Assembly: GCF_964033635.1 (NCBI RefSeq)
Contig: NZ_OZ035533.1
Span: 62,001-126,000 of the forward strand
Length of the DNA stretch: 64,000 nucleotides
Direction: 5' to 3'
DNA from: Chitinophaga sp. MM2321
GTDB lineage: Bacteria > Bacteroidota > Bacteroidia > Chitinophagales > Chitinophagaceae
Shown here: piece after piece, positions 20,605 through 51,617 of the stretch
How positions within the stretch are numbered: the first letter of the stretch is position 1
Layout of the letters: the number at the start of each line of letters is the position of its first letter
Made by a program: the position numbers and the translations under genes
Notes under the pieces: generated by a model
What the model saw: the letters and a program-made list of their open reading frames with translations, nothing else
Told to the model about the DNA's origin: nothing
The model's database searches: none

Positions 20605-20653
20605 CAGCGGCAACCTTCGGTACTGTAATGGGAAGAAAAAATTAACTTTAGTT

Positions 20654-32009: not shown

Positions 32010-32390
32010 CTAAATATTTCTTTTCCTTCTTTTTGAATAGACATAATTAATCCCCAGCACCGCAATACATATAAACAGGCCAAAGAATTCCCTGGTATCT
32101 TCTATCCATGGCTTGGTGGCCTTCATGCTTTGGGCAATATTTTCTGCCTGATGCTGCTGCATCCAATCTACAACGCCATCTTTTGTAAAAAATAAATAGA
32201 CTGCATAGGCGAGGTACACCAGTATACCACCGATATACCAGCTGCGGTAAAAACGGTGACGGGCTGCCAATGCGCAGAAAGTGGCAGCATAGAGATAGAT
32301 AGGCATCCATACATACGGATCGGGATCGTTATATTGTAAACCCGCAAAAATGATAAACACCACACAAAAGAAAATATTAAACACTTTCAT
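32010..32390 (-). CDS. TMEM220-like transmembrane protein
   Basis: This 126-residue membrane protein has about four hydrophobic segments and the conserved LQYNDPDPYVWMPIYLY loop after the first helix, typical of the TMEM220 family shared by bacteria and animals. No function is established. It has its own transcription unit, with a 628-bp intergenic region upstream. Confidence 0.88.
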   Translation of the reverse strand: MKVFNIFFCVVFIIFAGLQYNDPDPYVWMPIYLYAATFCALAARHRFYRSWYIGGILVYLAYAVYLFFTKDGVVDWMQQHQAENIAQSMKATKPWIEDTREFFGLFICIAVLGINYVYSKRRKRNI

Positions 32391-36000: not shown

Positions 36001-36240
36001 AACGGTTCTTATCTCCGTGCAAAGAATATGCTGATCGGGTATACACTCCCGAAGTATATGCTGGAACACATCGGGATTGAAAAATTCAGGGTATACGTAC
36101 AGGCAGCAAATGTATTTACTATCACCAAGTATTCAGGTATTGATCCTGAAGTAGCTGGTAACTCACAGGCTTTCGGATTAGATGAAGGTGCTTATCCTAA
36201 CCAACGTCAATACCTGGTAGGTGTGAATGTTACATTTTGA
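33019..36240 (+). CDS. SusC/RagA-type TonB-dependent transporter (PUL 2)
   Basis: This 1073-residue protein has a signal peptide cut near AFAQ (about residue 27), a carboxypeptidase-D-like domain (GKVSDKASGNALPGVTVYIKG, split by turns, residues 30-100), a TonB box LEEVVVTGYA near 112, a plug with MQVLKDAGAASIYGARAANG near 205 and a barrel ending in VNVTF. It imports a glycan or oligosaccharide with the SusD encoded 35 bp downstream. Confidence 0.96.
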   Translation: MKKHFYQALAVLCGILLLLSGSNAFAQTNVTGKVSDKASGNALPGVTVYIKGTNRGTATDPSGNFSLQAKSGQTLIFSFVGYDPQEVIVSSGPINILMAEKVGSLEEVVVTGYASQKKKDLTGAVSIVKVENLTKQPTSQIASQLQGQVSGVTVLGGGQPGEQPQVKIRGINTFGNNTPLYVIDGVPVSNLTDVNPNDVQTMQVLKDAGAASIYGARAANGVIVITTKRGTGKVKVTYDGYYGTQRPHSGNPWGILNPQEQGDLKWLALSNSGLALSDKQYGNGATPVVPDYIAPAGLKEGDPLTNPDLYFVNPEYKSAGDPATFYRISKANKQGTDWFHEIFKPAPITSHNISVSGGGDIGSYFFSFYYFNQQGTLTNTYNKRYAIRSNSTFNITDHIRIGENMEYSLINNPQIAALTEGSGIGMAFRELSIIPVYDIKGNYAGSSGSDLGNARNPVAIQDRFGRTKAQASRLLGNVFAEADILKNFTLRTSFGGEIYSFDNYNFVLPEYENAENNTVNSFTEGAGNGYDWTWTNTLTYHKNFNQQHDLKVLIGTEAFDNHYRNVTGTTTDYFSFDPNFANLSTGTGTPTNGSSFGSDGLFSLFARADYAFKDRYLLGALIRRDGSSRFGSANRYGNFPAVSAAWRISQEEFMKGISWISDLKIRGGYGIMGNQINVAPGNQFIAYGFNRRSSFYSINGAATTSQGFMLTQLGNPAAKWESNVNSNIGIDATLFKGALEFTIDYYQKEVRDLLYNPELPGVYGAATVPFSNVAKMKNKGWDVSITSVNNLTKDLKLELTGTLTTYKNTILAISESAPYFDLEGRRFGSPIIRNAIGQSISEFYGYKVVGFWDSKEEVDAANAAAKAKHPGLVEYQLEAAMGRFKYADTNGDGKVDADDRTYLGNPNPKFSYGLNVGLTYKNFDFSAFFYGVQGNKIWNQVLWWTDFYPSFVGAKGKTALYDSWTPTHKNAKAPIQEIASHASASGSPNSYFVENGSYLRAKNMLIGYTLPKYMLEHIGIEKFRVYVQAANVFTITKYSGIDPEVAGNSQAFGLDEGAYPNQRQYLVGVNVTF

Positions 36241-36275: not shown

Positions 36276-38054
36276 ATGAAAGCATTAAGATATTCAAGTC
36301 TGATTCTAATTATAGGAATGCTCGCAGGCTTTTTCGCCGCATGTAAAAAGAGCTTCCTGGAACGTGCTCCGCAAGGCTCACTTTCTGAAGAGATCGTGGC
36401 AAATAAAGCAGGGGTTACTTATTTATTAATAGGTGCTTATGCTGCACTGGATGGCCAGGGAGATGGAGCCGCACTTGGTGGTGGTGATCCATGGCGGGCA
36501 GCGCCCACCAATTGGGTATATGGTAGTGTTGTGGGCGGTGAAGCACATAAAGGTAGTAATGCCGGTGACCAGGAACCGATCAATTCCATTGCTGCCAGCA
36601 CGTATAATGCCAGTAACGATTTCTTTAATACCAAATGGAAAGCCGTATACGAAGGCGTTAACCGCTGTAACCTGACACTCAAAGAAATGCATCTGGCCAC
36701 CGACATGAGCGATGCTGAAAAAACACAGGTAGAAGCAGAAGCCCGTTTCCTCCGTGGCCATTATTATTTTGAACTGAAGAAGTTCTTTAACAATGTGCCT
36801 TATATTTCAGATACAACCAGTAATGTAAAAGTGTCAAATGAAGTTGATATCTGGCCATTTATTGAGGCCGACTTTAAATTTGCCATGGATAACCTGCCGG
36901 AAACACAGGGTGGAGACGTAGCCAGGGTAAATAAATGGGCCGCACAAATCTACCTGGCTAAATCTTATCTCTATGAGAAAAAATATCAGGAAGCATTTAC
37001 CTTGTTCCAGGACGCTATCGTAAAAGGTAAAACCAGTGCCGGTGTTGGATATAACCTGTCAACGAGATTTGAGAATAATTTCGATGCTGCCGCCAAACTG
37101 GGTAACCCGGAAGCTGTATTCTATATTGAAATGACAGCCAATGATGGTACAGGTAGTATTGCGAATGCCAATCCGGGCGAAATGCTGAACTTCCCTTATG
37201 GTGGCCCTACCACCTGCTGCGGATTTTTCCAGCCATCACAGGATCTTGTTAACTCTTACAGGGTGGATGCGGCTGGCTTGCCTTACCTGGACGATTATAA
37301 TTCACACGCTGTAAAATCTGATATGAATATCAGCAGTTCAGACGCCTTTACACCAGATGCTGGTTTGCTGGACCCACGCCTGGACTGGACCGTAGGCCGT
37401 CGTGGATTGCCTTATCATGACTGGGGATATCATGCCGGTGCTTCCTGGCAGCGTGATCAGGCTTATAGCGGCCCTTATTCTCCCAAGAAAATGATGTACT
37501 GGAAAGCTACCCAGGATAAGTATCATGACGCACATTCCTGGGCGCCTGGTACAGCTATCAACGTTAATCTTATCCGCTTCGCGGACGTATTGCTGATGAA
37601 CGCAGAATGCGCCGCCCAGATAGGAAATATGCCGGTGGCTACTGCGATGGTAAACAGGGTGCGCGACAGGATGAAGAATAATCCTGCAGAATGGCTGCAT
37701 AAATATGTTCCCGGCACCACAAGTTTTGATCCTGCCGTGATGGCCGCGAATTATAAAATTGGTGATTATCCGGAGTTTTCAGATAAAACGCTCGCATTAA
37801 AAGCCATTTATTTTGAACGTAAACTGGAACTCGCTGAAGAAGGTCATCGTTTCTTTGATCTCTCCCGTTGGGGAATTGCTGACCAGGTGTTGAATGCATT
37901 TTATGCATACGAAGTAGGGACTGCTAAAATTCCTGATCTGACCGGTGCAGTATTTACCAAAGGTAAAAATGAATATTTCCCGATTCCACAACGTCAGATC
38001 GATCTGACTTTAAATGGAAGTGAACGCGTGCTGAAACAGAATGCAGGCTACTAG
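36276..38054 (+). CDS. SusD/RagB-type nutrient-binding lipoprotein (PUL 2)
   Basis: This 592-residue lipoprotein has Cys near residue 23 (FFAACKK). SusD signatures are EAEARFLRGHYYFEL and the C-terminal IYFERKLELAEEGHRFFDLSRW. It is the surface partner of the preceding SusC. The sequence differs in type from the PUL 1 SusD proteins. Confidence 0.95.
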   Translation: MKALRYSSLILIIGMLAGFFAACKKSFLERAPQGSLSEEIVANKAGVTYLLIGAYAALDGQGDGAALGGGDPWRAAPTNWVYGSVVGGEAHKGSNAGDQEPINSIAASTYNASNDFFNTKWKAVYEGVNRCNLTLKEMHLATDMSDAEKTQVEAEARFLRGHYYFELKKFFNNVPYISDTTSNVKVSNEVDIWPFIEADFKFAMDNLPETQGGDVARVNKWAAQIYLAKSYLYEKKYQEAFTLFQDAIVKGKTSAGVGYNLSTRFENNFDAAAKLGNPEAVFYIEMTANDGTGSIANANPGEMLNFPYGGPTTCCGFFQPSQDLVNSYRVDAAGLPYLDDYNSHAVKSDMNISSSDAFTPDAGLLDPRLDWTVGRRGLPYHDWGYHAGASWQRDQAYSGPYSPKKMMYWKATQDKYHDAHSWAPGTAINVNLIRFADVLLMNAECAAQIGNMPVATAMVNRVRDRMKNNPAEWLHKYVPGTTSFDPAVMAANYKIGDYPEFSDKTLALKAIYFERKLELAEEGHRFFDLSRWGIADQVLNAFYAYEVGTAKIPDLTGAVFTKGKNEYFPIPQRQIDLTLNGSERVLKQNAGY

Positions 38055-38177: not shown

Positions 38178-39716
38178 ATGCCCAATCAACCAACAATAAA
38201 GCAACTAAGTACCGCTGCTTTATTCCTGATGGCTTCCTGCCTGGTCATTAGCAGCGGATGTCATACAACCGTAAAAGAAGAGAAAGGAAAAACACTGGCA
38301 GATAAATATTGTGGAAGTTGTCATTTGCCCGTATCCCCTGCAATGCTTGATAAAGAAACCTGGACGAAGCATGTTTTGCCGGCAATGGCGCTCAAATTAG
38401 GTATCAGGGTGTGGAGCGGGGATCAGTATTACCCACCAATGCCAGGCGAAAAGCCTGCCCTTGTAACCATGAATGAATGGACGGAACTCGTGGCATATTA
38501 TGAGCAGCATGCACCGGAGAAACTGGCCTCCGCCAAACCACCAGTTAAGTTACAGCATGATTGGGCTGTTTTCTCCCTGAAAACGCCTGAAATCAAGGAT
38601 AGCCTCTTCGTGGCCGCTACCACCATGGTGGCTTTTAATCCTGCAAACAGTGATTTGCTGACCAGCGATGGCAACAATACGCTTACCCGCTGGGATAGGG
38701 ATCTCCGCGTGATAGATAGCCGCAAACTGCCTTCCCCTGCTGTTGATATACTGTTTACAAAAGATACGGCCGGTCAGCAACAAGCTATCCTCACCGAAAT
38801 CGGTAACATGCGTGCATTGGATGTGTCCGCCGGTATTATTACCCGCCTCAATCTGAATGATCCGCAAAGCAAACAGTCCGATCTGATGCCTTTTCTCAAA
38901 CGTCCTGTACAAACGGTGGAAGCAGATATTAATAAAGATGGTCTCATGGACCTGGTAGTATGCGCTTTTGGTCATAATCAGGGCGGCCTTTACTGGTTGA
39001 AACAACTCCCTGATCACAAGTATGAACAACAAACCATCTGGGAAGTGCCCGGCGCTATTCATGCAGTAACAGGTGACTTTAATCACGACGGCTGGACAGA
39101 CCTCATGGTACTCTTTGCTGCCGGTGATGAAGGAATATGGTTGTTTGAAAATGATCATAAAGGTGGATTTAAATCATCCAACCTGCTGAGATTCCCTCCT
39201 ATGAATGGTTCTACCAGTTTTCAACTGGCCGATTTCAATGGAGACGGCTTACTGGATATCCTGTATACCTGCGGAGATAATGCAGATTTTTCTATGATCC
39301 TTAAACCTTATCATGGTTTATACGTCTACGTAAATGAAGGAAATTCCCGATACCGGCAGGCCTGGTTTTATCCTATAAATGGTTGTACGAAAGCTGTAGC
39401 AGCAGATTTTAACCAGGACGGAAAAATTGATATCGCCACCATCGCTTTTTTTGCAGATATGAAAAATAATCCCGGTGAGAAATTTATTTTCTTTGAAGGA
39501 GCAGGTACACCATTTAACTTTGTACCGCATGCACCACCCATTGAAAAAGAAGGGCACTGGATTTGTATGGATGTGAAAGATTATGATCAGGATGGGGACC
39601 TCGATATCATACTAGGAAACTATGCCAGGGGTTTTATTATACAGGATGACTATAAACCGGAGTGGAAAGAATATCAACCGTTTATAGTCTTGCTAAACAA
39701 TGCAAAACATCCGTAG
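38178..39716 (+). CDS. VCBS/FG-GAP repeat lipoprotein with a c-type haem motif
   Basis: This 512-residue exported protein has a possible lipobox (ISSGC, about residue 28) followed by a haem-binding CGSCH near residue 46. The remainder is a VCBS/FG-GAP beta-propeller with repeated calcium-type loops (DINKDGLMDLVVC, DFNHDGWTDLMVL, DFNGDGLLDILYT, DFNQDGKIDIATI, DYDQDGDLDIILG). The fusion of a short cytochrome-like segment with a propeller suggests an envelope redox or glycan-binding role. It follows a SusCD pair and may be part of that locus. Confidence 0.85.
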   Translation: MPNQPTIKQLSTAALFLMASCLVISSGCHTTVKEEKGKTLADKYCGSCHLPVSPAMLDKETWTKHVLPAMALKLGIRVWSGDQYYPPMPGEKPALVTMNEWTELVAYYEQHAPEKLASAKPPVKLQHDWAVFSLKTPEIKDSLFVAATTMVAFNPANSDLLTSDGNNTLTRWDRDLRVIDSRKLPSPAVDILFTKDTAGQQQAILTEIGNMRALDVSAGIITRLNLNDPQSKQSDLMPFLKRPVQTVEADINKDGLMDLVVCAFGHNQGGLYWLKQLPDHKYEQQTIWEVPGAIHAVTGDFNHDGWTDLMVLFAAGDEGIWLFENDHKGGFKSSNLLRFPPMNGSTSFQLADFNGDGLLDILYTCGDNADFSMILKPYHGLYVYVNEGNSRYRQAWFYPINGCTKAVAADFNQDGKIDIATIAFFADMKNNPGEKFIFFEGAGTPFNFVPHAPPIEKEGHWICMDVKDYDQDGDLDIILGNYARGFIIQDDYKPEWKEYQPFIVLLNNAKHP

Positions 39717-40004: not shown

Positions 40005-40898
40005 GTGGGGGAATATGTATACGATCAGGATAAAGTGAGCAGGCTGCTTGGAACGATCCTGGAAAATAACAGTAGTGAAAAAGCAACTGCGTGGTTGCAA
40101 CAACGATTGCAACTCTTGCAACAAACCGGGGCTATACCGCAGTTTAATCAAACCTTTACTGCCATTCCGCGCTTTACAGGTAAAGAGATCATTGCAATAA
40201 CAACAACTACACATCAGTTGCTGCAACAGGAAGTGCCCGGTCTTTTCGTACAGGGATGGACGTTAGATCGCCTCGCCAGGGTATGGTGGCTCCTGCAATT
40301 GCCTGTCAATAATAAAGAGGTATACCTGAACACCCTGGAAAACCTGTTCAACGCCGCTGAAATGAATGAACTGGCGGCATTATACAGCGCATTACCGCTA
40401 CTGGCCTGGCCGGAAGAATGGAAGCTGCGCACCGCTGAAGGCATCCGTTCCAACATCGGCATCGTACAGGAAGCGATCATGCTGCACAACCCTTACCCGG
40501 CAAAATATCTCGACGAACCCGCATGGAATCAGCTGATTATGAAGGCTATCTTTACAGATAAGCCGATACACCAGGTAATAGGATTAGATGAACGCACCAA
40601 CGCAGTACTCGCACAGATCCTGACCGATTTTGCACACGAACGCTGGGCTGCCGGAAGATCAGTATCTCCCATGCAATGGCGGATGCTGACAAACTTTATC
40701 CAGGCAGATAATATGGCAGACATCACCCGTATCTGGCATTCCGTAGATCCGGCAGAGAAAGGCGCCGCTGCACTGGTATGTGCAAAATCAACTTATCTTC
40801 CCGCAAAACAATTATTGGAACAATCACCGGCGATAGCCGCTGAAATAGCAGATGGCAGCCTTTCCTGGGAAGTCATCGCTAACAGGATAACAAAATAA
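40005..40898 (+). CDS. eboA: EboA domain protein
   Basis: This 297-residue, helical, soluble protein resembles EboA. The family has no known catalytic activity. The assignment rests on sequence pattern plus position: it is first of six genes in the order known for ebo clusters. The start is a GTG at 40005; the in-frame region between an upstream TAA at 39948 and this codon has no ATG. Next is eboB after 32 bp. Its role is inferred to be in making or moving an unidentified small molecule across the inner membrane. Confidence 0.8.
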   Translation: MGEYVYDQDKVSRLLGTILENNSSEKATAWLQQRLQLLQQTGAIPQFNQTFTAIPRFTGKEIIAITTTTHQLLQQEVPGLFVQGWTLDRLARVWWLLQLPVNNKEVYLNTLENLFNAAEMNELAALYSALPLLAWPEEWKLRTAEGIRSNIGIVQEAIMLHNPYPAKYLDEPAWNQLIMKAIFTDKPIHQVIGLDERTNAVLAQILTDFAHERWAAGRSVSPMQWRMLTNFIQADNMADITRIWHSVDPAEKGAAALVCAKSTYLPAKQLLEQSPAIAAEIADGSLSWEVIANRITK

Positions 40899-40930
40899 CA
40901 AAATCAGAAAATTCAAAAATATTTGATGAT

Positions 40931-41917
40931 ATGTGTGGTATTCATGAATTAACAGAAAAAGATCTTCAACCCCTTACTTATAGTCCTGCATACCTCGATA
41001 AAATAAAAGGAATGCGCTTTTTTGATCCGCATGTACACATGACCGCCCGCACTACGGACGATTATCAGGCCATGGCGGATGCCGGTGTAGTAGGTATTAT
41101 TGAACCCGCTTTCTGGCTGGGACAGCCACGTACCGGCGTTGATACCTTCCGCGATTATTTCAGCAGCCTCGTTGGATGGGAGCGTTTCCGCGCTTCTCAA
41201 TTCGGGATCAGGCATTACTGCACCATCGGCCTCAATTCAAAAGAAGCCAACAACGAAAAGCTGGCAGAAGCTGTCATGGAAATATTACCACAGTTTATTT
41301 ATAAAGAAGGCGTAGTAGGTATCGGTGAAATCGGATTTGATGACCAGACGCCGCTGGAAGAAAAATATTACCGCGCACAACTGGAGCTGGCAAAAGAAGC
41401 CGGATTGCCGGTACAGATCCATACTCCGCACCGCGACAAGAAAAAAGGTACCCAGCGTAGCATGGATATCGCACTGGAACATGGATTGGAGCCTCACATG
41501 ATCATTGTAGACCATAATAACGAGGAAACCGTGAAAGAAGTGCTGGATCGTGGCTTCTGGGCTGCGTTTACCATCTATCCCTTTACCAAAATGGGTAATG
41601 AGCGCATGGTAGCCGTTGTAAAACAGTACGGAAGCGGGCGTATCATGGTCAACTCCGCTGCAGACTGGGGTATCAGCGATCCACTGGCCGTTCCTAAGAC
41701 GGCTGCTTTGATGCACGAAAGTGGTATTGACTTGAATGACATTCATTTGGTAACTTACACCAATGCCGTGAAAGCATTTGCACAGAGCGGACAACTGAAC
41801 GAAGCTGATTTTGACATCGCCGGAAATATTGATCAGAGTGAAAAATATAATGGAAGCAGCGTTTTACGTGGTGGTCAGCAACCCAGAATTGATAAAAATA
41901 CAACCATCATCCGGTAA
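40931..41917 (+). CDS. eboB: EboB, TatD-like metal-dependent hydrolase
   Basis: This 328-residue amidohydrolase-fold protein has the metal set seen in TatD-type enzymes: HVH (His34, His36), Glu133 in GIGEIGFDD, His164 in VQIHTPH, His195 in VDHNN and Asp245 in NSAADWG. All expected ligands are present, so it should be active; the substrate is unknown. It lies between eboA (32 bp) and eboC (55 bp). Confidence 0.88.
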   Translation: MCGIHELTEKDLQPLTYSPAYLDKIKGMRFFDPHVHMTARTTDDYQAMADAGVVGIIEPAFWLGQPRTGVDTFRDYFSSLVGWERFRASQFGIRHYCTIGLNSKEANNEKLAEAVMEILPQFIYKEGVVGIGEIGFDDQTPLEEKYYRAQLELAKEAGLPVQIHTPHRDKKKGTQRSMDIALEHGLEPHMIIVDHNNEETVKEVLDRGFWAAFTIYPFTKMGNERMVAVVKQYGSGRIMVNSAADWGISDPLAVPKTAALMHESGIDLNDIHLVTYTNAVKAFAQSGQLNEADFDIAGNIDQSEKYNGSSVLRGGQQPRIDKNTTIIR

Positions 41918-41972
41918 TGCCTGGCAGTTTCGTTACTGCTGGCAATTAACCAAATGAAAACCTGTTTACACG

Positions 41973-42893
41973 GTGAGTTACATTGTTAGCAAAGTGATTG
42001 GATACCTACGCCTGATGCGCCCGGCAAATATTATAACTGCGATTGCAGATATCTTAGCTGGTGTGGCCATTTCCGGCTATTTTTTACATGTAACCTTCCA
42101 TACATGTACCCTGGACCTTATCCTTCCTGTTGTATGCCTCTGCCTGGCCACTATCGGCTTATACGGCGGCGGTGTAGTATTTAACGACGTATTTGATGCA
42201 ACGCTCGACGCCGTGGAACGTCCGGAAAGACCCATTCCCAGCGGCGTGATCTCAAAAACACAGGCAATTATCCTGGGCAGCTACCTGCTCCTTGTGGGCA
42301 TCCTTGCGGCCTTTTCCGTAGGGCGGCTCAATGGATATGCCGGCTGGCTGGCCCTCGCCACAGCTGCATCTGCCCTGAGCTATAATAAATGGGGGAAACA
42401 TCACCCTGTATGGGGACCGCTGAATATGGGCCTCTGCCGCGGATTGAACCTGCTACTGGGTATCAGCATCGTACCCGCTGCTATTGAAACCTACTGGTGG
42501 ATGGGCTTCATCCCCATCATATATATCGCTGCGGTCACCAATATCAGCCGCGGTGAAGTTCATGGTGGTAGTCAGCGAAGTTTGCAGATCACTGCTGCCT
42601 GTTATGCGGCAGTATTCATCACCATGGGCGTATTAGCTGCCATGCACCAGCAATTCCTGACCGCACTGCCCTTTATCCTGCTATTTGCATACATGATCAT
42701 GAAACCACTGCTGAATGCCAGGAAGGACCCTTCAGGCCCCAACATCGGCAAAGCAGTGAAAGCAGGCATCGTAGCATTGGTGGTCATGAATGCCGCATGG
42801 GTAGCCGCTTTCGCCACCCTGCCTTTTGCATTAGCCGTATTGATCCTGTTACCCATCTCCATGTTACTAGGCAAGATGTTTTCCATAACATGA
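41973..42893 (+). CDS. eboC: EboC, UbiA-like membrane prenyltransferase homologue
   Basis: This 306-residue integral membrane protein of the UbiA superfamily has about eight hydrophobic segments. The first aspartate-rich motif is intact (NDVFDATLD, residues 71-79). At the place of the second motif the sequence reads NISRGEVHGG (190-199), which lacks the usual aspartate pair. It starts with GTG at 41973; a nearby ATG is out of frame. It is the last gene before the interruption of the ebo set and may handle an isoprenoid substrate or carrier. Confidence 0.88.
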   Translation: MSYIVSKVIGYLRLMRPANIITAIADILAGVAISGYFLHVTFHTCTLDLILPVVCLCLATIGLYGGGVVFNDVFDATLDAVERPERPIPSGVISKTQAIILGSYLLLVGILAAFSVGRLNGYAGWLALATAASALSYNKWGKHHPVWGPLNMGLCRGLNLLLGISIVPAAIETYWWMGFIPIIYIAAVTNISRGEVHGGSQRSLQITAACYAAVFITMGVLAAMHQQFLTALPFILLFAYMIMKPLLNARKDPSGPNIGKAVKAGIVALVVMNAAWVAAFATLPFALAVLILLPISMLLGKMFSIT

Positions 42894-42895
42894 AT

Positions 42896-43015
42896 ATTTA
42901 GGAATTTTTTGATTTACGAATTTTTTGATTTTGAGATTTAAAGAAAAATATCCTCCGAAGATCTTCGCTTTAAATCTCAAAATCAAAAAATTCGTAAATC
43001 AAAAAATCCCTAAAT
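42896..43015. repeat. Modular palindromic element, copy B
   Basis: A 120-bp inverted repeat has arms of about 47 bp with a single mismatch (ATTTAGGAATTTTTTGATTT outward, then ACGAATTTTTTGATTTTGAG) and a core with GAAGATCTTCGCTTTAAAT, identical to the core of the 31903 element. It occupies the gap between convergent eboC and the response regulator gene. Confidence 0.9.
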
Positions 43016-43026
43016 GAAAAGCCTCC

Positions 43027-43665
43027 TCAATCAATCAACCCCCGCTTTATCGCTTCTTTCACCAGCCCCGCTGTATTTTTTACGGCTAGTTTCTGTGTGA
43101 GGTTAAGCCGGTGTGTTTCTACGGTGCGCAAACTGATATAGAGCATTTCCGCTATTTGCTGGTTGGAATGTTCTTCTGCAATCAGCGTCAGGATTTCCTT
43201 CTCCCGGCGGGTCAGCGGAATATCGTACCCGGAAGATTTCTGGCCGGTGATCATTTCATGCAATAGTTGATGTTTGATGCTCGCATCAAGGAATTGTTCT
43301 CCCGCATTTACTTTTTCGATGGCCTCTACCAGCGTGTCCTGGTCTGTGTTTTTAAGTAAATAACCGGTAGCGCCATTACGCAGCATTTGCTTGATATAAT
43401 GGGACTCCGTAAAATTGGTGAGCGCAATAATTTTCACCTGCGGATGTTTTTTATGTACCAGTTTACATAGTTCCAGGCCGTCTATTTCGGGCATCTGTAT
43501 ATCCAGTAACAATACATCGGGTTGCGCCAGGGGTAAAGCGGCCATCAGTGCGGAGGCGGCATTGCTTTCATACACCACGGAAATGTGGGAGAAGGGCGCC
43601 AGCATGGCTTTTAATCCGTTAATAACCAGCAGATGGTCATCTGTAATGGCTAATTTAATTTGCAT
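43027..43665 (-). CDS. NarL/FixJ-family response regulator
   Basis: This 212-residue protein has a receiver domain with phospho-acceptor Asp55 (DVLLLDIQMPEIDG) and acidic pocket ITDDH, then a LuxR-type helix-turn-helix near residues 150-205 (LTRREKEILTLIAEEHSNQQIAEML). It is the partner of the histidine kinase encoded 22 bp upstream. Both lie opposite to and inside the ebo gene set, so control of ebo genes is possible but unproven. Confidence 0.95.
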   Translation of the reverse strand: MQIKLAITDDHLLVINGLKAMLAPFSHISVVYESNAASALMAALPLAQPDVLLLDIQMPEIDGLELCKLVHKKHPQVKIIALTNFTESHYIKQMLRNGATGYLLKNTDQDTLVEAIEKVNAGEQFLDASIKHQLLHEMITGQKSSGYDIPLTRREKEILTLIAEEHSNQQIAEMLYISLRTVETHRLNLTQKLAVKNTAGLVKEAIKRGLID

Positions 43666-43687
43666 GTAGGTAGCTGTTAAAATAAAA

Positions 43688-45664
43688 TTATACTTCCATC
43701 AGTTGCATGATGGCGATATTAAATTCAATATAGGCAGTCGTGCCGCGTCCTGTGGAAGCGTCAAGTTCCAGGTGGCCGTTTAATGCTTTTATCCTTGATT
43801 GTAAATTGTTTAGTCCCATGCCGGAATTGAGTGCTGCTGCGTGCTGAAAGCCGATGCCGTTATCTTCTACTGTAATCGTCAGCAACTGATCATGCTGTGT
43901 AAGTTGCACCAGTGCTTCTGTAGCGTGGGAATGCTTGATAATATTGTTGATCAGTTCCTGCACAATACGGTAAACAGACAACTCGAAATTTCCTTTGAAA
44001 CGTTGCATGTTACCGGAAGTATAAAAGTTGATGCTCAGCTTTTTTGAGTGGCTCACATTCCGGCAGTAATAGTGCAACGCCTCTGCCAGTCCCATTCTGG
44101 CGAGGAGTTCGGGCATAAGGTTATGCGCTGTTTTTCTTACTTCCCCAATGGCATCATCCAGCATGCCCAGTGCGTGATTAAAACCGGTATCACTTTGTAA
44201 GAAAGTGCGTTCATGTTTTAAGGCGCCGAAATGCATTTTTACGGCAGATAATAAACCGCCTACACCATCATGAAGATCTTTGGATAAACGGGTACGTTCT
44301 TTTTCTTCGCCCTGCATCATGGCTTCCAGCACCTGCACGGTTTTTTCTATTTCCAGTGTTTGCAGTTGCTGCTGTTGCAGGTGGTGCCGGTGTTTTAGCC
44401 GTTGCCATCCGTAAAAGATCAATACCAGCGACAGTACAACACTGACGAGGAAGATGACGATCCACATATTTTTTTGTTGTAGTTGCAGGTCTTTTTGGGT
44501 GAGCTGCAATTTTTTTTCCGTGAGGTCGCGGTCCTTCTTTTCTGATTGGTATTGCATTTCCATTTGCTGTACATTCCTGCGGGTGGTATTTCCTACGAGG
44601 GAATCATTCAGGGCCTCATACGATTTTCTAAGATCAAAAGCGCGCTGGTATTGCCCTTGCTCGGCCTGGATATCGGAGGCTGTGAGGTAGGCGAGCCGTA
44701 GTTCGTCGCCCGCCTGGTTTTGCTTTGCCAGTGTAATAGCTTTTTTGATAAAGGTATCTGCGGCAGCATATTTTTTTGTCTTAAATAATTCCTGTCCGTA
44801 GCCCAGGTATATATAAGTGAGATAATCAGGTGCAGGGAATTTTTGTGAGACAGTTAATGCTGTTTCATATTGCGATAGCGCCAGGTCATGTTTATCCTGA
44901 TCGGAATAGATGCTGGCGGTATTTATCAACCCATCGAGTACATAAGTACTGTCGCCGATTTGTCTGCCCAGTTGCATGGCCTTTTTAAAATAACCTTCTC
45001 CTTCCTCATAACGTTTCAGACGGCTGGCGCTGGTGCCCATGTTTACCAGTGCGGAGGCCATGCGTCGTTTGCTGTTGATGCGGACACCGTGCTGATAGGC
45101 CCTGTTGGCATATTCAAATCCTTTTTTATAATCTTCCAGGGTGATAAAAACAGACGCCAGGTTGTTGGTCATGATGCCGGCAAACAGGCTGTCACCCGCA
45201 GCATCCGCCAGTTTCAGCGCCTCCAGGTAACGCTCTGCTGCCGCCGGGAAATTGCTGACCTGCTGGTATTCATTGCCGCAATAGCTGATAGCACGCATCT
45301 GGTTAGTGGTATCACGCAAAGATTTGTAGATAATAACAGCTTGTTCCACCATGTACAACGACTGCAAATATTCCCCGCGCATATCCTGGATATACATGTA
45401 ATAACAGGCGAAATCGGCTTTCCCTTTTGGGTAGTTCAGCTGCTGACTGAGCTTTAAGGCATGCTTAAAGATCTTGTCCGATTTCTCCAGGCTGTCTGGC
45501 AGAAAGGTGCAGGCATATACAATGAGCGTACTCACAAGACTGGTATCGGGCTTTTTCTGTTGGATCACTTTCAGCAGACTATCCTGCTCCGGGGTATGAC
45601 TGGCCTGACTTTGCATACAAACGCAGCTAATAAAACAACAAAAGGCTACAACTTTTTTTAACAT
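43688..45664 (-). CDS. TPR-containing sensor histidine kinase (HisKA_3 type)
   Basis: This roughly 658-residue membrane kinase starts at ATG 45664 (MLKKVVAFCC), preferred over a GTG 12 bp upstream. It has a signal peptide, a periplasmic TPR array (residues about 80-330), a coiled coil rich in Lys/Gln, one transmembrane helix (MWIVIFLVSVVLSLVLIFYGW near residue 400, split here), the HisKA_3 box DLHDGVGG with the phospho-accepting His, and an HATPase domain (EDNGIGF, then GMGLNNLQSRI). It phosphorylates the NarL-type regulator just downstream. The periplasmic TPR suggests sensing through a protein or peptide. Confidence 0.94.
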   Translation of the reverse strand: MLKKVVAFCCFISCVCMQSQASHTPEQDSLLKVIQQKKPDTSLVSTLIVYACTFLPDSLEKSDKIFKHALKLSQQLNYPKGKADFACYYMYIQDMRGEYLQSLYMVEQAVIIYKSLRDTTNQMRAISYCGNEYQQVSNFPAAAERYLEALKLADAAGDSLFAGIMTNNLASVFITLEDYKKGFEYANRAYQHGVRINSKRRMASALVNMGTSASRLKRYEEGEGYFKKAMQLGRQIGDSTYVLDGLINTASIYSDQDKHDLALSQYETALTVSQKFPAPDYLTYIYLGYGQELFKTKKYAAADTFIKKAITLAKQNQAGDELRLAYLTASDIQAEQGQYQRAFDLRKSYEALNDSLVGNTTRRNVQQMEMQYQSEKKDRDLTEKKLQLTQKDLQLQQKNMWIVIFLVSVVLSLVLIFYGWQRLKHRHHLQQQQLQTLEIEKTVQVLEAMMQGEEKERTRLSKDLHDGVGGLLSAVKMHFGALKHERTFLQSDTGFNHALGMLDDAIGEVRKTAHNLMPELLARMGLAEALHYYCRNVSHSKKLSINFYTSGNMQRFKGNFELSVYRIVQELINNIIKHSHATEALVQLTQHDQLLTITVEDNGIGFQHAAALNSGMGLNNLQSRIKALNGHLELDASTGRGTTAYIEFNIAIMQLMEV

Positions 45665-45910
45665 GGCATAATACACTTACTCAGCCTTGTGGCTGATCAG
45701 TTAATAATGAACGATTACCGGGTCGCATACACAATGAACAATCCACAGCAGGGGATAAATAAACATCTCCGGCCAGGCTCAGTGCTTGACATTTACGCAG
45801 CAATGCAACAAAAGAAGTACGATAAACAACCGATGTTACAGGGTTAACAATATGGGGCTCCTATATTCATCATCCGGACAAACAACTATCCTATTCTGGT
45901 AGTGCTACGA

Positions 45911-45933
45911 ATGATTGTACAGACGACAATCAT
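45911..45933. promoter_or_regulatory. Candidate operator ATGATTGT-N7-ACAATCAT
   Basis: This is a perfect inverted repeat with 8-bp arms and a 7-bp spacer in the divergent region. It shares the design ATTGT-N7-ACAAT with the two palindromes upstream of PUL 1. It could bind the same regulator, perhaps the adjacent NarL-type protein. Confidence 0.45.
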
Positions 45934-46009
45934 CAGGTAGACGCGTAAAGTTCTTTATTTCTGTTGTAATACACAATAGGTTATTGGATAAACGGAAGGA
46001 GGGGGATTA

Positions 46010-46096
46010 CGTACTTTTCCCGGGTTGCTGCCGGAATGCCTTACCGGCGCGTATTCCAGACCGGGCACCCGGCATCCGTAGAAGTACGCAATTTTT
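46010..46096 (+). ncRNA. Candidate structured RNA upstream of eboD
   Basis: The outer stem CGTACTT/AAGTACG (46010-46016 with 46082-46088) encloses a second stem TGCCGG/CCGGCA (46029-46034 with 46069-46074) and GCC/GGC. The outer stem is followed by CAATTTTTT, as at an RNA 3' end. The segment is more GC-rich than its surroundings. No known riboswitch signature was recognised. Confidence 0.3.
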
Positions 46097-46215
46097 TAAA
46101 TAATGGTTTGTACCGTCAAACAGGGCTTCGAAATAAGGTTTCTTTGTGTCCGGTTAACGAATGAACCATGCTTTATTTGCATACCGATAACAACAACAGG
46201 TAGAACCCCAAAAAT

Positions 46216-46240
46216 AGGCTCCGTTCCCGGAGCCTTATTC
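46216..46240. terminator. Terminator-like hairpin upstream of eboD
   Basis: AGGCTCC-gttccc-GGAGCCT is a perfect 7-bp stem followed by TATTC on the plus strand and ATTTTT on the minus strand. It lies 77 bp before eboD, so eboDEF must have its own promoter downstream of it or be controlled by read-through. Confidence 0.6.
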
Positions 46241-46316
46241 TTTGTATGATTTCACATTATTTCTATGTACTTTTAAAGGCTATATATTTTTAAGACAGAT
46301 TGTTCGCGGATAAGCC

Positions 46317-47471
46317 ATGGAGTACATTCAACAAAATTTTAACGTCAACTTTTCTTTCGGGGTTTTCTTTACCAGTCAGCTATTTGATCTTTCCAATACC
46401 TGTTTGTCAGCGTTCCTGGAATCCAGGGCGGAAGATGCTTTTCAGAAAAAATTACTGGTTATCCTGGATGGGGGTGTGGTAGCGCATCATCCGGACCTGC
46501 CCCGGCAAATCAGCGGCTACCTCAGTCAGGTACGCGGCTTTCAGCTGGCGCCTGAAATGATCACCATCACCGGTGGTGAAAGTGTGAAGAATGACCTGCC
46601 ACTCCTGTTCAGACTGGTGGATGCTATTGATCAATACGGAATTGACCGGCATTCCTATGTAATAGGGATTGGCGGCGGTTCCCTGCTGGACCTGGTAGGG
46701 TTTGCAGCAGCCATTTCACACCGGGGTGTAAAACATATCCGGGTGCCTACCACCGTGCTATCACAAAACGACTCCGGCGTAGGCGTTAAAAACGGCGTAA
46801 ACTATAAGGGGAAAAAGAATTTCCTGGGTTCCTTTGCGCCGCCTGCGGCTGTATTCAATGATGCCACCTTTTTACCAACCCTTGATCCCCGCGACTGGCG
46901 CTCCGGTATGGTGGAAGCCGTGAAGGTGGCCCTGATCCGCGACGCCCCCTTCTTTGAATGGATGGAGGAGCATGCCGTGGCCATGACTGCAGGCGATATA
47001 CCGGCTATGCAGGAGCTGATCTACCGTTGCGCCGAACTGCATATGGCGCATATAGGCAGTGGCGGTGATCCGTTTGAAAGCGGCTCTTCCCGTCCGTTGG
47101 ACTTCGGCCACTGGAGTGCGCATAAGCTGGAACAACTCACCAACTTTTCCTTGCGTCATGGAGAGGCGGTAGCTATCGGTATTGCTTTAGATAGCGTATA
47201 TTCGTGCCTGTTAGGTTGGCTCGATGAACCTTCCATGCAACGCATCATTTCAGTACTCAAAAATATGCAATTACCTATCTGGCATCCGTTGCTGGAAAGA
47301 CAGGATACCGAACCATCTCCCGTGGTGATAGGATTGGAAGAATTTCGCGAACACCTGGGAGGACGCCTGACCATTTCGCTCCTGCGTGCCATCGGCAAAG
47401 GAGAAGAAACGCATCATATGGACCTGGATTTGTTATACAAAGCAGTAGATATCTGCAAAAAATTACAATAA
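46317..47471 (+). CDS. eboD: EboD, 3-dehydroquinate-synthase-like protein
   Basis: This 384-residue sugar-phosphate-cyclase family protein has the NAD loop GIGGGSLLDLVG (residues 117-128), the substrate segment SQNDSGVGVKNGVN (149-162) and metal ligands Glu200, His265 and His281, all in place. Ebo-cluster members form a separate branch whose product is unknown, so shikimate-pathway function should not be assumed. The stop codon overlaps the eboE start (TAATG), showing translational coupling. Confidence 0.88.
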   Translation: MEYIQQNFNVNFSFGVFFTSQLFDLSNTCLSAFLESRAEDAFQKKLLVILDGGVVAHHPDLPRQISGYLSQVRGFQLAPEMITITGGESVKNDLPLLFRLVDAIDQYGIDRHSYVIGIGGGSLLDLVGFAAAISHRGVKHIRVPTTVLSQNDSGVGVKNGVNYKGKKNFLGSFAPPAAVFNDATFLPTLDPRDWRSGMVEAVKVALIRDAPFFEWMEEHAVAMTAGDIPAMQELIYRCAELHMAHIGSGGDPFESGSSRPLDFGHWSAHKLEQLTNFSLRHGEAVAIGIALDSVYSCLLGWLDEPSMQRIISVLKNMQLPIWHPLLERQDTEPSPVVIGLEEFREHLGGRLTISLLRAIGKGEETHHMDLDLLYKAVDICKKLQ

Positions 47472-48709
47472 TGCAAACACCTTACGGACATCTCACATAT
47501 TGCACAAATATTCATCCCGGCGAAAACTGGCCGGATCATTTTGCACAGCTCAAAAAATTTATACCTGCTATCAAACAGCAGGTAAGCCCTGACCAGCCTT
47601 TTGGTATCGGGCTACGGGTTGCCAATTCCGCCAGCCTGGAACTGGCCAAGGAAGCCAATCTGAATGCTTTTAAGGAGTGGCTGAAACAGGAAGATTGTTA
47701 TGTATTTACCATGAACGGTTTTCCTTACGGCGGCTTTCATAATGTAGTGGTAAAAGACCAGGTACATACACCTGACTGGACACAGGCAGACCGCGTAGCC
47801 TACACGATCCGCCTGTTCAGGATCCTGGCGGCCTTGCTGCCAGCCGGTATGGAAGGAGGTATTTCTACTTCACCGCTCTCTTACAAATACTGGTGCAACC
47901 GTTGCGAAGAAGAGAAAAATTCCTTTACAGAAAGTGCTACGCTCAATATGCTGCTGGTAGTGGAACAACTGGCACGTATCCACCGTAGTGGCGGGCCTTT
48001 GCTACACCTGGATGTAGAACCGGAACCGGATGGCCTCCTGGAAAATACCAGCGAATATATCAGCTGGTATTTTGAAGAGTTGTTGCCCTACGGTATTCCG
48101 TTTATGAAAGATAAATTTGATGTAGATGACCAAACAGCAGCAGACATGATTAAAACGCATGTGCAACTCTGCTATGATGTTTGTCATTTTGCCCTGGTAT
48201 ATGAAGCGCCGCAACGCGTGCTGGAACGCCTGCAACACCACGGTCTCAAAATAGGGAAGCTACAGATCAGTGCAGCACTGAAAGCAGACCTGCCAACGGG
48301 TACGGACCAACGCAAAGAAGTGATCGATGCTTTCCGCAAATTTAACGAGCCCACTTACCTGCATCAGGTAATAGCCAGGAAGAAGTCAGGCGGATTTACG
48401 CACTACCCCGATTTGCCGGAAGCATTGGCTGATGCTGCAAATGAAGAGATTGTTGAATGGCGTTCCCATTTTCATGTACCGGTGTTTTTAGACAGGTTTG
48501 ATGTATTGCAATCCACCCAGGATGATATTGTGCAGACGTTGGCATTGCAGCGGGAAAAGCCCTTTACCAGCCATATGGAAGTGGAAACATATACCTGGGA
48601 TGTGCTGCCGGCAGCGTATAGGCAGGAAATGTCGCTGTCCGTTTCCCGCGAGCTGAACTGGATAAAGCAACAGCTCAACACAGGAACAGTTGGAATTGTG
48701 ACGATGTAA
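47471..48709 (+). CDS. eboE: EboE, metabolite traffic protein
   Basis: This 412-residue soluble protein with a predicted TIM-barrel (sugar-isomerase-like) pattern matches EboE. It contains FTMNGFPYGGFH near residue 79, Cys pairs CNRCEEEK near 139 and the acidic LDVEPEPDG near 179. It has no signal peptide. Its enzymatic role is unknown. It begins on the last base of eboD and is followed by eboF after 38 bp. Confidence 0.85.
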   Translation: MQTPYGHLTYCTNIHPGENWPDHFAQLKKFIPAIKQQVSPDQPFGIGLRVANSASLELAKEANLNAFKEWLKQEDCYVFTMNGFPYGGFHNVVVKDQVHTPDWTQADRVAYTIRLFRILAALLPAGMEGGISTSPLSYKYWCNRCEEEKNSFTESATLNMLLVVEQLARIHRSGGPLLHLDVEPEPDGLLENTSEYISWYFEELLPYGIPFMKDKFDVDDQTAADMIKTHVQLCYDVCHFALVYEAPQRVLERLQHHGLKIGKLQISAALKADLPTGTDQRKEVIDAFRKFNEPTYLHQVIARKKSGGFTHYPDLPEALADAANEEIVEWRSHFHVPVFLDRFDVLQSTQDDIVQTLALQREKPFTSHMEVETYTWDVLPAAYRQEMSLSVSRELNWIKQQLNTGTVGIVTM

Positions 48710-48747
48710 TTATAGCTTTATACCGGAAATGTAACGGTGAAGAATCT

Positions 48748-50115
48748 ATGAGAAAGACAGTAGTAATTGATGTGGTTGGGCTATCCTCCTCTATTCTGGA
48801 GCACATGCCTTTTTTGCAGGCTTATACGCGGGAAAGGCATCTGGCTACGGTCACGCCTATGTTACCCGCGCTCACAACATCCGTGCAAAGCACCTATCTC
48901 ACCGGGCAGTGGCCCAGTGAGCATGGCATCGTTGGCAATGGCTGGTATGACCGTACAGATAGCGAGATCAAATTCTGGAAGCAGTCCAACAAGCTGGTGG
49001 ATGCTCCCAAGATCTGGGATAAAGCCCGCAAACTGGATCCTTCTTTTACCTGCTCACAGATGTGCTGGTGGTACAACATGTACGCGAATGTGGATTATTC
49101 CCTGACCCCACGCCCCAACTATCTTTCTGATGGCCGTAAAGTACCCGATTGCTATACATCGCCGGATACGCTGCGTGATTACCTGACAAAGGAACTCGGC
49201 CAGTTTCCCCTGTTCAATTACTGGGGGCCAACTGCCAGTATCAAGTCATCACAATGGATTGCGGATGCCGCCATTCTCACAGATAAACAACACGATCCTA
49301 CGCTTACTTTTATCTATCTCCCGCACCTGGATTACTGTTTACAGAAATTTGGGCAGGATGTGGTTCATAATGCAAAAGAGATCAAAGAAATTGATGACGT
49401 CTGCAAACAGCTGATCACCTACTATCAGCAGAAAGGGTGCGATCCCATTGTATTATCTGAATATGGGATTACCAATGTAAATAATCCGATTCACCTGAAC
49501 CGGCTATTAAGACAGGAAGGACTACTGTCTGTTCGTGTGGAAAGAGGATTGGAACTGCTGGACCCTGGTGCTTCCAAAGCCTTTGCAGTGGCCGATCATC
49601 AGATTGCGCACATTTATATCAACGATCCTTCCTGTTATAAAAAAGTACGTTCCATCCTCGAAAATGTTCCCGGTGTACAGCTGGTGCTCGACCGGGAAGG
49701 TAAGCGGCAAAATCACCTGTACCACGAGCGTAGCGGTGATCTCATCGCAGTAGCGGATGCCGACAGCTGGTTTACCTATTACTATTGGCTGGATGATCAG
49801 AAAGCACCCGATTTCGCCCGTATCGTGGATATTTTCCGTAAGCCGGGGTATGATCCGGTGGAGATGTTTATGAATCCTGCCGACCCGCTGATCAAGCTCA
49901 AGGCTGCCGGCAAACTCCTCAAAAAGAAACTGGGATTCCGCTACCTGATGAATGTAATTCCGCTGGATGCCACGCTCATCAAAGGCTCACATGGCAGGGT
50001 GGAAGAAAACCCGGTGTATCATCCGGTGGTGATCAGCAGCGAACCATTTTCCAAAACCCGGTTACAGGCAACTGATGTATATGAAGTGATATGGAATCAT
50101 TTAGTGCATAAATAA
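48748..50115 (+). CDS. eboF: EboF, type I phosphodiesterase/nucleotide-pyrophosphatase family protein
   Basis: This 455-residue alkaline-phosphatase-superfamily protein aligns with nucleotide pyrophosphatases: metal ligand Asp8 in VIDVVG, nucleophile Thr43 in LPALTTSVQ, then YLTGQWPSEHGIVGN, LPHLDYC, VLSEYG and the C-terminal ligands in ADHQ and KGSHGR. No signal peptide is evident, so it probably acts in the cytosol on a phosphoester or pyrophosphate intermediate. It is the last gene of the ebo set. Confidence 0.87.
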   Translation: MRKTVVIDVVGLSSSILEHMPFLQAYTRERHLATVTPMLPALTTSVQSTYLTGQWPSEHGIVGNGWYDRTDSEIKFWKQSNKLVDAPKIWDKARKLDPSFTCSQMCWWYNMYANVDYSLTPRPNYLSDGRKVPDCYTSPDTLRDYLTKELGQFPLFNYWGPTASIKSSQWIADAAILTDKQHDPTLTFIYLPHLDYCLQKFGQDVVHNAKEIKEIDDVCKQLITYYQQKGCDPIVLSEYGITNVNNPIHLNRLLRQEGLLSVRVERGLELLDPGASKAFAVADHQIAHIYINDPSCYKKVRSILENVPGVQLVLDREGKRQNHLYHERSGDLIAVADADSWFTYYYWLDDQKAPDFARIVDIFRKPGYDPVEMFMNPADPLIKLKAAGKLLKKKLGFRYLMNVIPLDATLIKGSHGRVEENPVYHPVVISSEPFSKTRLQATDVYEVIWNHLVHK

Positions 50116-50279: not shown

Positions 50280-51617
50280 ATGAAAAGAAGAGATTTTATT
50301 AAAACCGGTTCTGTAGCCGGTTTAGGAGCAGGGCTAACCATTCTCAACTTCCCTGTATTCGGGAAAAATGCACCCAGCAACAAATTGGTATTAGGGGTGA
50401 TGGGCGTTAACTCCCGTGGCAACTGGCTGGCACAGGTGGCGGCTAAATTACCCGGCGCCGAAATAGGCTATATCTGCGATGTGGAAGACGGCGCCATCCA
50501 GAAAGGGTTGAAAGCTGTTGCGGGCGCTCAGCAGCGCAAGCCCACCGTTATTAAAGATATCCGCAAGCTGCTGGAACGGAAAGACTTTGATGCCCTCATC
50601 ATCGCTGCACCCGACCACTGGCATGCACCAGCAGCCATTATGGCCACCGCTGCAGGCAAACATGTATACGTAGAAAAGCCCTGTGCACATAATCCGGAGG
50701 AAGGCGAACTGCTGATAGCAGCCGCCAAAAAATACAACCGGCTGGTGCAAATGGGCAACCAGCGCCGTTCCTGGCCTAATATGCAACAGGCCATCAAAGA
50801 AGTGAAAGAAGAAGGCATTATCGGCAAAGTGCATTACGGAAGGGGTTGGTATGTAAATGACCGCAAACCAATCGGCATCGGCAAAAAAATACCCGTGCCG
50901 GCTACACTGGACTGGGATCTGTGGCAGGGACCAGCTCCACGGCAGGAATACCAGGATAACGTTGTTCATTACGACTGGCATTGGCGCTGGAAATGGGGTA
51001 CCTCCGAAACCTGCAACAACGCTACACACGAACTGGATTGCTTACGCTGGTTCATGGATGTGGAATTTCCTACGAAAGTAACTTCTGCCGGCGGTCGCTA
51101 TGCCTACCCACCCGACGATTGGGAAACACCGGACACACAAACGCTCAACTTCGAATTTGAAGGCAACAAAGCCATCGCCTGGGAAGGCCGCAGCTGCGAT
51201 CCTTTTAACCTGGAGGGCAGCGGTCGCGGATTTGCCCTCTTTGGCGAAAATGGCAGTCTATATAACTCAGGAGGCGACAGCTACCGGATTCTCGACAAAA
51301 AAAATAAAGTGGTGAAAGACGTGAAACAGGCTGCTAATCCTAATCAGAGTGTAACCAACACCGTTAGTCCGGCAGGCGAGTTTTATGATGCTATTCATAT
51401 CAACAACTTCCTGGAAAGTATCCGTGGTAAAGCTACCCTGAATTCTGAAGTCGGCGTTGGCTACCGCAGCATCCTGTTATGCCTGCTGGGCAACATCGCA
51501 CATCGCACCGGCCGCATCCTGCACACCGATCCGCAAAACGGTCATATCCTCCACGATGAGGAAGCCATGAAAATGTGGAAACGGGAATATGAGAAGGGAT
51601 GGATGCCTAAAGTGTAA
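50280..51617 (+). CDS. Tat-exported Gfo/Idh/MocA family oxidoreductase
   Basis: This 445-residue NAD(P)-dependent oxidoreductase has a twin-arginine-type leader (KRRDFIKTGSVAGLGAG), which implies folded export with bound cofactor. It carries the Rossmann start LVLGVMGVNSRGN, AAPDHWHAP and the family motif EKPCAHN near residue 138. The ATG at 50280 keeps the Tat motif at residues 2-4. Such proteins often act on sugars or glycosides in the periplasm. It follows eboF by 164 bp and may or may not belong with the ebo genes. Confidence 0.92.
   Translation: MKRRDFIKTGSVAGLGAGLTILNFPVFGKNAPSNKLVLGVMGVNSRGNWLAQVAAKLPGAEIGYICDVEDGAIQKGLKAVAGAQQRKPTVIKDIRKLLERKDFDALIIAAPDHWHAPAAIMATAAGKHVYVEKPCAHNPEEGELLIAAAKKYNRLVQMGNQRRSWPNMQQAIKEVKEEGIIGKVHYGRGWYVNDRKPIGIGKKIPVPATLDWDLWQGPAPRQEYQDNVVHYDWHWRWKWGTSETCNNATHELDCLRWFMDVEFPTKVTSAGGRYAYPPDDWETPDTQTLNFEFEGNKAIAWEGRSCDPFNLEGSGRGFALFGENGSLYNSGGDSYRILDKKNKVVKDVKQAANPNQSVTNTVSPAGEFYDAIHINNFLESIRGKATLNSEVGVGYRSILLCLLGNIAHRTGRILHTDPQNGHILHDEEAMKMWKREYEKGWMPKV

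Follow-up and report, generated by a model that had tools for sequence, protein, structure and literature searches.

The ebo operon of the ABCDEF type, six gene families in that order, is apparently ancestral for the Bacteroidetes (PMC5133447). In Nostoc punctiforme the ebo genes serve scytonemin: single deletions of eboA, eboB, eboC, eboE and eboF (not eboD) each kept the scytonemin monomer from reaching the periplasm (PMC6282210). The EDB cluster of Pseudomonas fluorescens NZI7 is stated to include a full ebo cluster (PMC6282210) and has been linked, in a review, to nematode-repelling indole compounds. EboC enzymes from Bacteroidota ebo clusters form the Ubi-297 group, with activities known from in vitro acceptors alone (PMC9235831). 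Two ideas on function originate in this literature, a prenylated cyclitol as product (PMC5133447) and a lipid carrier (PMC6282210). The subject of this analysis is a complete ebo set in the chromosome of Chitinophaga sp. MM2321, within a window of 64,000 nucleotides (contig NZ_OZ035533.1, positions 62,001 to 126,000). The system is already known, and the locus by itself is ordinary. New, as far as literature searches reach, are a link to a TMEM220-family membrane protein, an altered metal site in EboF, an inositol-phosphate-synthase-like (MIPS-like) stand-in for EboD, and fixation of ebo throughout a genus. The preferred reading, held at a probability of about 0.5, is that ebo is a membrane-bound route to a prenylated cyclitol, which serves the traffic of small molecules, and that TMEM220 is a candidate membrane partner in Bacteroidota.

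The six genes lie in the order A to F, split into eboABC (40005–42893) and eboDEF (46317–50115). A sequence-only reading had proposed both the set and the split, and open reading frames (ORFs) together with NCBIfam and Pfam profiles bear it out. EboA exceeds the cut-off of the NCBIfam domain model NF035938 (171.6 bits against 50) and falls under that of the family model NF035937 (235.5 against 320); EboC (NF035940, 400.3 bits) and EboE (NF035939, 504.6 bits) both clear a cut-off of 250, so that all three fall inside ebo families. The locus shares families and order with the described ABCDEF operon and differs from it in two respects: a minus-strand two-component system (43027–45676) separates eboC from eboD, and a TMEM220 gene with a SusC/SusD/FG-GAP block lies upstream. 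TMEM220 is not named in the consulted sections of PMC5133447. The Nostoc cluster has the same EboA, EboB, EboC, EboE and EboF, but its eboD lies outside the cluster proper. A Pfam scan for pigment genes covered 35 of the 45 non-overlapping window ORFs of at least 130 amino acids, plus two of 126; it recognised no pigment-enzyme family, no scytonemin-specific profile having been used. The earlier claim that pigment genes are missing nearby holds for these ORFs and does not extend to the ten outside the scan.

Within Chitinophaga, ebo is fixed. eboE is present in 79 of 79 genomes, above cut-off in 78; its frame is broken in two (G047 and G065, with completeness 80 and 65). A gene-order survey, run within the genus, recovered ABCDEF in 77 of the 78 other loci, the 78th (L154) ending at a contig edge. 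Elsewhere eboE is patchy. Even draws of genomes found it in 22 of 244 Chitinophagaceae (13 of 101 genera) and in 31 of 395 members of the phylum Bacteroidota (19 of 171 genera). This pattern, patchy elsewhere yet fixed in Chitinophaga, is more easily reconciled with a general cellular function than with a specialised pigment, and the role beyond pigment that had been suggested from the sequence is likely. Loci were located via EboE, EboF or, on plasmids, EboB, and loci without these three are outside the sample; named genomes are represented by the best 80 of 590 matches, and gene starts were assigned mechanically by scripts.

The case for a cyclitol begins with EboD, a sugar phosphate cyclase. 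Its zinc ligands E, H and H are kept in all 194 aligned rows, and the residues diagnostic of dehydroquinate synthase (AroB) are lost. With numbering and roles that we take from the fungal enzyme, K250 is replaced by H and N268 by D in 194 of 194 rows, and R264 by S (163), A (29), N (1) or G (1). A separate PF01761 gene elsewhere in the 6.78 Mb genome (G000:C1:4715378-4715716) is AroB-like at the diagnostic positions. On these two grounds EboD was rejected as AroB, in line with the sequence-only reading; NCBIfam model NF004852 still labels it 3-dehydroquinate synthase. The D of the EboD DFGH motif is common to 4p53, which is listed as 'Cyclase' and which we take to be valiolone synthase.

Plasmids supply a second line of evidence. 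Among 11 plasmid ebo loci, seven carry eboD and the other four a MIPS-like cyclase, never both. The four belong to Streptomyces (L210), Gemmatirosa (L211), Embleya (L213) and Nonomuraea (L214); in the Streptomyces locus the cyclase gene is contiguous with genes for a prenyltransferase and an isomerase and with eboA, eboB, eboE and eboF, and adjoins a gene of the ScyD/ScyE family. The protein reaches 39.6 bits against the mycothiol INO1 model (cut-off 638) and is therefore a distant MIPS relative. Since it stands where eboD is missing, a carbocycle-forming step fits this slot and a cyclitol product is supported. No MIPS-like cyclase was found in the 80 named loci (best 80 of 590), five of which (L227, L231, L234, L238 and L262) also lack eboD in the stretches examined. 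All four MIPS-like loci contain an extra sugar isomerase-like gene alongside the cyclase. Other plasmid neighbours of ebo are a gene annotated as ferritin-like, on three plasmids of different phyla (L206, L209 and L212), and two Gfo/Idh/MocA oxidoreductases in Ketogulonicigenium (L215:602-2648).

The remaining enzymes mostly have well-conserved sites. Invariant metal-site or metal-site-like residues occur in EboB, EboD and EboE in nearly all rows; in EboB, the ligands H34, H36, E133, H164, H195 and D245 are kept in 191 of 192, the other row being gapped or misaligned there. EboC retains the first Asp motif, NDxxDxxxD (N and the first D in 186 of 187 rows, the other two D in 187 of 187), and lacks the second, DxxxD, in all 187. 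This second motif is present in five of seven EboC paralogues of the same genome; it is thus missing in some of these too, and its absence does not exclude EboC from the UbiA superfamily. Orthologues of EboC farnesylate quinolines in membrane fractions (PMC9235831), and EboC is therefore regarded as a working prenyltransferase. The structure model of EboA is helical and solenoid-like, with a predicted local distance difference test score (pLDDT) of 97.3.

EboF is the exception. It is a member of the type I phosphodiesterase/NPP family PF01663, matched over profile positions 1–342 of 342 with 189 bits, and its profile aligns to the NPP ligand positions in 2gsn and to most of them in 1ei6. The NPP zinc ligands are taken here to be D54, T90, D210, H214, D257, H258 and H363, with T90 as the nucleophile. 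At this two-zinc site (D, T, D, H, D, H, H in the family) EboF has V10, T43, D195, Q199, E238, Y239 and H415; four of the six zinc ligands are replaced, by V, Q, E and Y. The same combination recurs in 202 of 202 EboF rows (193 distinct, from 13 phyla), and none has the two-zinc site. The distinct rows comprise 158 from Bacteroidota, 11 from Cyanobacteriota, eight from Pseudomonadota, four from Acidobacteriota, three from Actinomycetota and nine from eight others. They derive from the window and 206 loci, minus five that could not contribute: L154 is cut, L158 and L159 are broken, L206 has no eboF in the stretch, and the ORF of L219 was rejected by the script. Another 26 PF01663 matches occur in the genome. 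All seven of those examined show the standard D, D, H, D, H; one has S for T, and two have a gap at the final H. With four ligands lost and each swapped for one fixed residue, EboF remains strongly constrained and is no normal two-zinc hydrolase. The earlier statement that the metal ligands of EboB, EboD and EboF are intact thus stands for the first two and fails for the third, and EboF gives no ground for concluding that the pathway should be active. The consulted sections of PMC5133447, and a term search of that paper, contain no mention of the altered site.

The candidate membrane partner came from clustering of ebo-adjacent genes, which yielded TMEM220 (PF15071) in 45 loci of 21 genera. 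In the window its gene, on which the sequence-only reading was silent, lies 7.6 kb upstream of eboA, behind the SusC/SusD/FG-GAP block. Of the 79 Chitinophaga genomes, 78 have a single PF15071 gene; G065 carries a remnant. In all 75 genomes that have both genes on one contig, TMEM220 is upstream of eboE and divergent from it, at a distance of 4.7–25 kb. Twenty Chitinophaga loci without SusD have TMEM220 in the stretch, facing ebo; stop-to-stop frames place it 0.4–0.6 kb from eboA in 17 of these. In three further loci without SusD (L129, L134 and L148) it is about 18 kb away. The association extends beyond the genus. TMEM220 occurs in 22 of 22 eboE-positive against 40 of 222 eboE-negative genomes of the family draw (Fisher 3e-15), and in 24 of 31 against 26 of 364 genomes of the phylum draw (Fisher 1e-18). 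Counted by genus, it is found in 13 of 13 eboE-positive genera against 33 of 101 sampled genera in the family draw (7e-8), and in 16 of 19 against 31 of 171 in the phylum draw (2e-11). The sole control, the small membrane family PF13781, gave 5 of 22 against 36 of 222 (p 0.39; family draw only).

Physical linkage outside Chitinophaga is variable. Six of the 17 non-Chitinophaga eboE-positive family genomes have TMEM220 within 10 kb of eboE; in the other 11 it is on a different contig, some contigs being short, or more than 1 Mb away. Pooling samples gave 29 non-Chitinophaga loci with TMEM220 near ebo (5 of 17 from the family, 4 of 20 from the phylum and 20 of 80 named, a few genomes counted twice). 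It follows eboF directly on the same strand in 14 and stands at the start of eboA, again on the same strand, in 12 (overlapping it in L163). The remaining three are single cases: in Hymenobacter it comes after eboF in convergent orientation, in L282 it precedes eboA and diverges from it, and in the rearranged cluster of L182 it stands ahead of eboE. TMEM220 thus adjoins ebo in five arrangements. A literature search that had TMEM220 and PF15071 among its terms returned nine papers, none of them with TMEM220. Human TMEM220 is reported at the Golgi, and its knock-down disturbs the Golgi and glycoprotein secretion (PMC6979480); for ebo this is a distant lead and no test.

A model can be built on these observations, namely the gene identities, the conserved sites, the predicted folds of EboA and EboE, and the co-occurrence and adjacency of TMEM220; from them we infer substrates, step order, lipid product, the role of TMEM220 and regulation. 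(i) EboD would form a cyclitol by cyclising a sugar phosphate, most likely sedoheptulose 7-phosphate. (ii) EboE, which has a metal-dependent isomerase/epimerase fold, and EboB, an amidohydrolase-type metal enzyme, would modify the cyclitol. (iii) In the inner membrane, EboC would prenylate the cyclitol. (iv) The helical solenoid of EboA may keep the enzymes together as a scaffold. (v) EboF would bind or turn over a phosphate-bearing intermediate by some route other than the usual two-zinc hydrolysis. (vi) The lipid product would help small molecules to cross the inner membrane, where TMEM220 may be its partner as an anchor or translocator. The local two-component system between eboABC and eboDEF may adjust ebo. 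A narrower version is tentative at best: TMEM220 would be the missing membrane component in Bacteroidota, binding or flipping the prenylated cyclitol made by EboA to EboE, and EboF a non-hydrolytic (pseudo-phosphodiesterase) subunit.

Several points weigh against the cyclitol pathway with its membrane partner. The ebo product was still described as unknown in 2016 (PMC5133447), and no later paper naming it was found in the literature search. The acceptors on which EboC is active in vitro are aromatic, with no cyclitol among those named in the consulted parts of PMC9235831. The altered site of EboF argues against a simple hydrolase step, and in the stretches examined at L227, L231, L238 and L262 eboF occurs without other ebo genes. 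By profile, 7 of the 31 eboE-positive phylum genomes lack TMEM220, although profile thresholds could miss diverged members, and it is present in the eboE-negative genomes counted above. None was seen near ebo in the stretches examined of the 11 plasmid loci or the named non-Bacteroidota loci, and it is therefore no universal ebo part. The Fisher tests ignore phylogeny beyond the genus counts and contrasts, and the two draws overlap slightly. The whole association might be an artefact of lineage or gene order, with TMEM220 unrelated to ebo. Gene order in Chitinophaga is inherited, so the 75 concordant genomes are not 75 events, 40 of 222 family genomes have TMEM220 and no eboE, and in four genera (g7, g77, g81 and g98) it persists in members without eboE. 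Such an artefact is nevertheless improbable given the five arrangements, the negative control family, the presence of TMEM220 where linkage was not seen (11 of 17 family genomes) and five genera (g5, g22, g25, g30 and g35) in which a sampled eboE-negative member also lacks it.

Two alternatives concern the product itself. The pathway might lead to a prenylated aromatic, quinoline-type metabolite, EboC farnesylating an aromatic acid and the traffic phenotypes being secondary. Of 14 acceptors, the Maribacter EboC does prefer 8-hydroxyquinoline-2-carboxylic acid and quinaldic acid, the first of which is farnesylated by the Zobellia and Algoriphagus enzymes as well (PMC9235831), and the Pseudomonas EDB cluster yields indole compounds on heterologous expression. 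This is unlikely, however, because EboD is a sugar phosphate cyclase whose place is taken by a MIPS-like cyclase where it is missing, both pointing to a cyclitol; nor did the scan of 35 of the 45 window ORFs bring up a recognisable gene of an aromatic-acid pathway. Less probable again is a transport machine with no distinct small-molecule product, in which an EboABC-based complex moves metabolites and enzyme folds are reused for binding. It would account for the single phenotype shared by the five Nostoc deletions, retention of the scytonemin monomer in the cytoplasm (PMC6282210), for an EboF site mostly lost in every row, and for the predicted solenoid of EboA. It sits badly with the invariant metal-site residues of EboB, EboD and EboE and with the catalytic activity of EboC orthologues (PMC9235831). 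On EboF the balance is closer, and an active phosphoesterase using a single metal or an unusual site (T43, D195, Q199, E238, H415) falls only somewhat short of an even chance. The family T, D and H are kept in every row, the four replacements are fixed rather than drifting, and several eukaryotes acquired EboF without other ebo genes (PMC5133447); yet the second zinc site retains only T, plus E substituting for D, and the seven own-genome relatives keep the standard ligands.

Table 1. Coordinates of the ebo genes and neighbouring features within the window.
Feature	Position	Strand	Basis and remarks
Proposed ebo partner, a 126-aa membrane protein of the TMEM220 family	32010..32390	-	PF15071, 84.4 bits (cut-off 27)
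SusC-like TonB receptor	33019..36240	+	Pfam; between TMEM220 and eboA
SusD-like lipoprotein	36276..38054	+	Pfam; between TMEM220 and eboA
FG-GAP repeat protein with N-terminal CxxCH (haem c-like) motif	38178..39716	+	Pfam, motif read from sequence; directly upstream of eboA
eboA	40005..40898	+	GTG start; NF035938 above, NF035937 below cut-off; predicted all-helical, solenoid-like
eboB	40931..41917	+	TatD/amidohydrolase-like metal enzyme; PF01026
eboC	41973..42893	+	GTG start; UbiA-like prenyltransferase; NF035940, PF01040
Inverted repeat separating eboC from the convergent response-regulator gene	42896..43015		48 bp, arms 98% complementary
NarL/LuxR-type response regulator between eboC and eboD	43027..43665	-	PF00072, PF00196
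TPR/HisKA_3 sensor histidine kinase, presumably paired with the response regulator	43688..45676	-	Pfam
eboD	46317..47471	+	sugar phosphate cyclase; PF01761, PF24621
eboE	47471..48709	+	xylose-isomerase-like TIM barrel; NF035939
eboF	48748..50115	+	alkaline-phosphatase-superfamily protein, metal site altered; PF01663, 189 bits
Gfo/Idh/MocA oxidoreductase after eboF	50280..51617	+	Pfam

The two-component system that splits the locus (table 1) is not confined to this strain. A regulator, a kinase or both stand between eboC and eboD in 32 of the 78 other Chitinophaga loci, scattered over separate parts of the genus in a FastTree tree of joined Ebo columns (no branch-support test). The insertion was therefore probably gained early and then lost in some members, or gained more than once. 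Homologues of the response regulator with at least 68% identity occur in 28 of 79 Chitinophaga genomes, one copy each (39 candidates per genome were scored, and those with E 1e-60 or better listed). In 27 of these the gene lies within about 5 kb on the eboE contig; the remaining one (G072) is on a contig that also carries TMEM220. The system may regulate the genes that it separates. Judged by its sequence, the 48-bp inverted repeat after eboC is likely to act as a two-way terminator. In six other loci (L177, L179, L183, L190, L191 and L232) eboABC and eboDEF form two divergent units, and the ABC/DEF boundary has thus been broken in more than one way.

For the other neighbours, the association with ebo is one of position. 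Homologues of SusD and of the FG-GAP protein each occur upstream of eboA in 53 of the 78 other Chitinophaga loci, and the SusD homologue is absent in the lineage whose TMEM220 faces eboA directly. A Gfo/Idh/MocA homologue follows eboF on the same strand, at most 1.5 kb away, in 30 of 78. Elsewhere in the window (20570–21814), and unrelated to ebo, a serine beta-lactamase-family protein (PF00144) overlaps a gene with sigma-70 region 2 and DUF6596.

If the narrower version is true, ebo would be a general lipid-carrier system by which small molecules cross the inner membrane, and human TMEM220, which is poorly understood, would gain a bacterial counterpart to learn from. The co-occurring TMEM220 supplies the traffic model with a concrete membrane candidate, and the MIPS-like cyclase that replaces EboD speaks for a cyclitol. 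The altered site of EboF warns experimenters off assaying it as an ordinary phosphodiesterase. For gene deletions and lipid analysis, Chitinophaga provides a non-photosynthetic host in which ebo is fixed.

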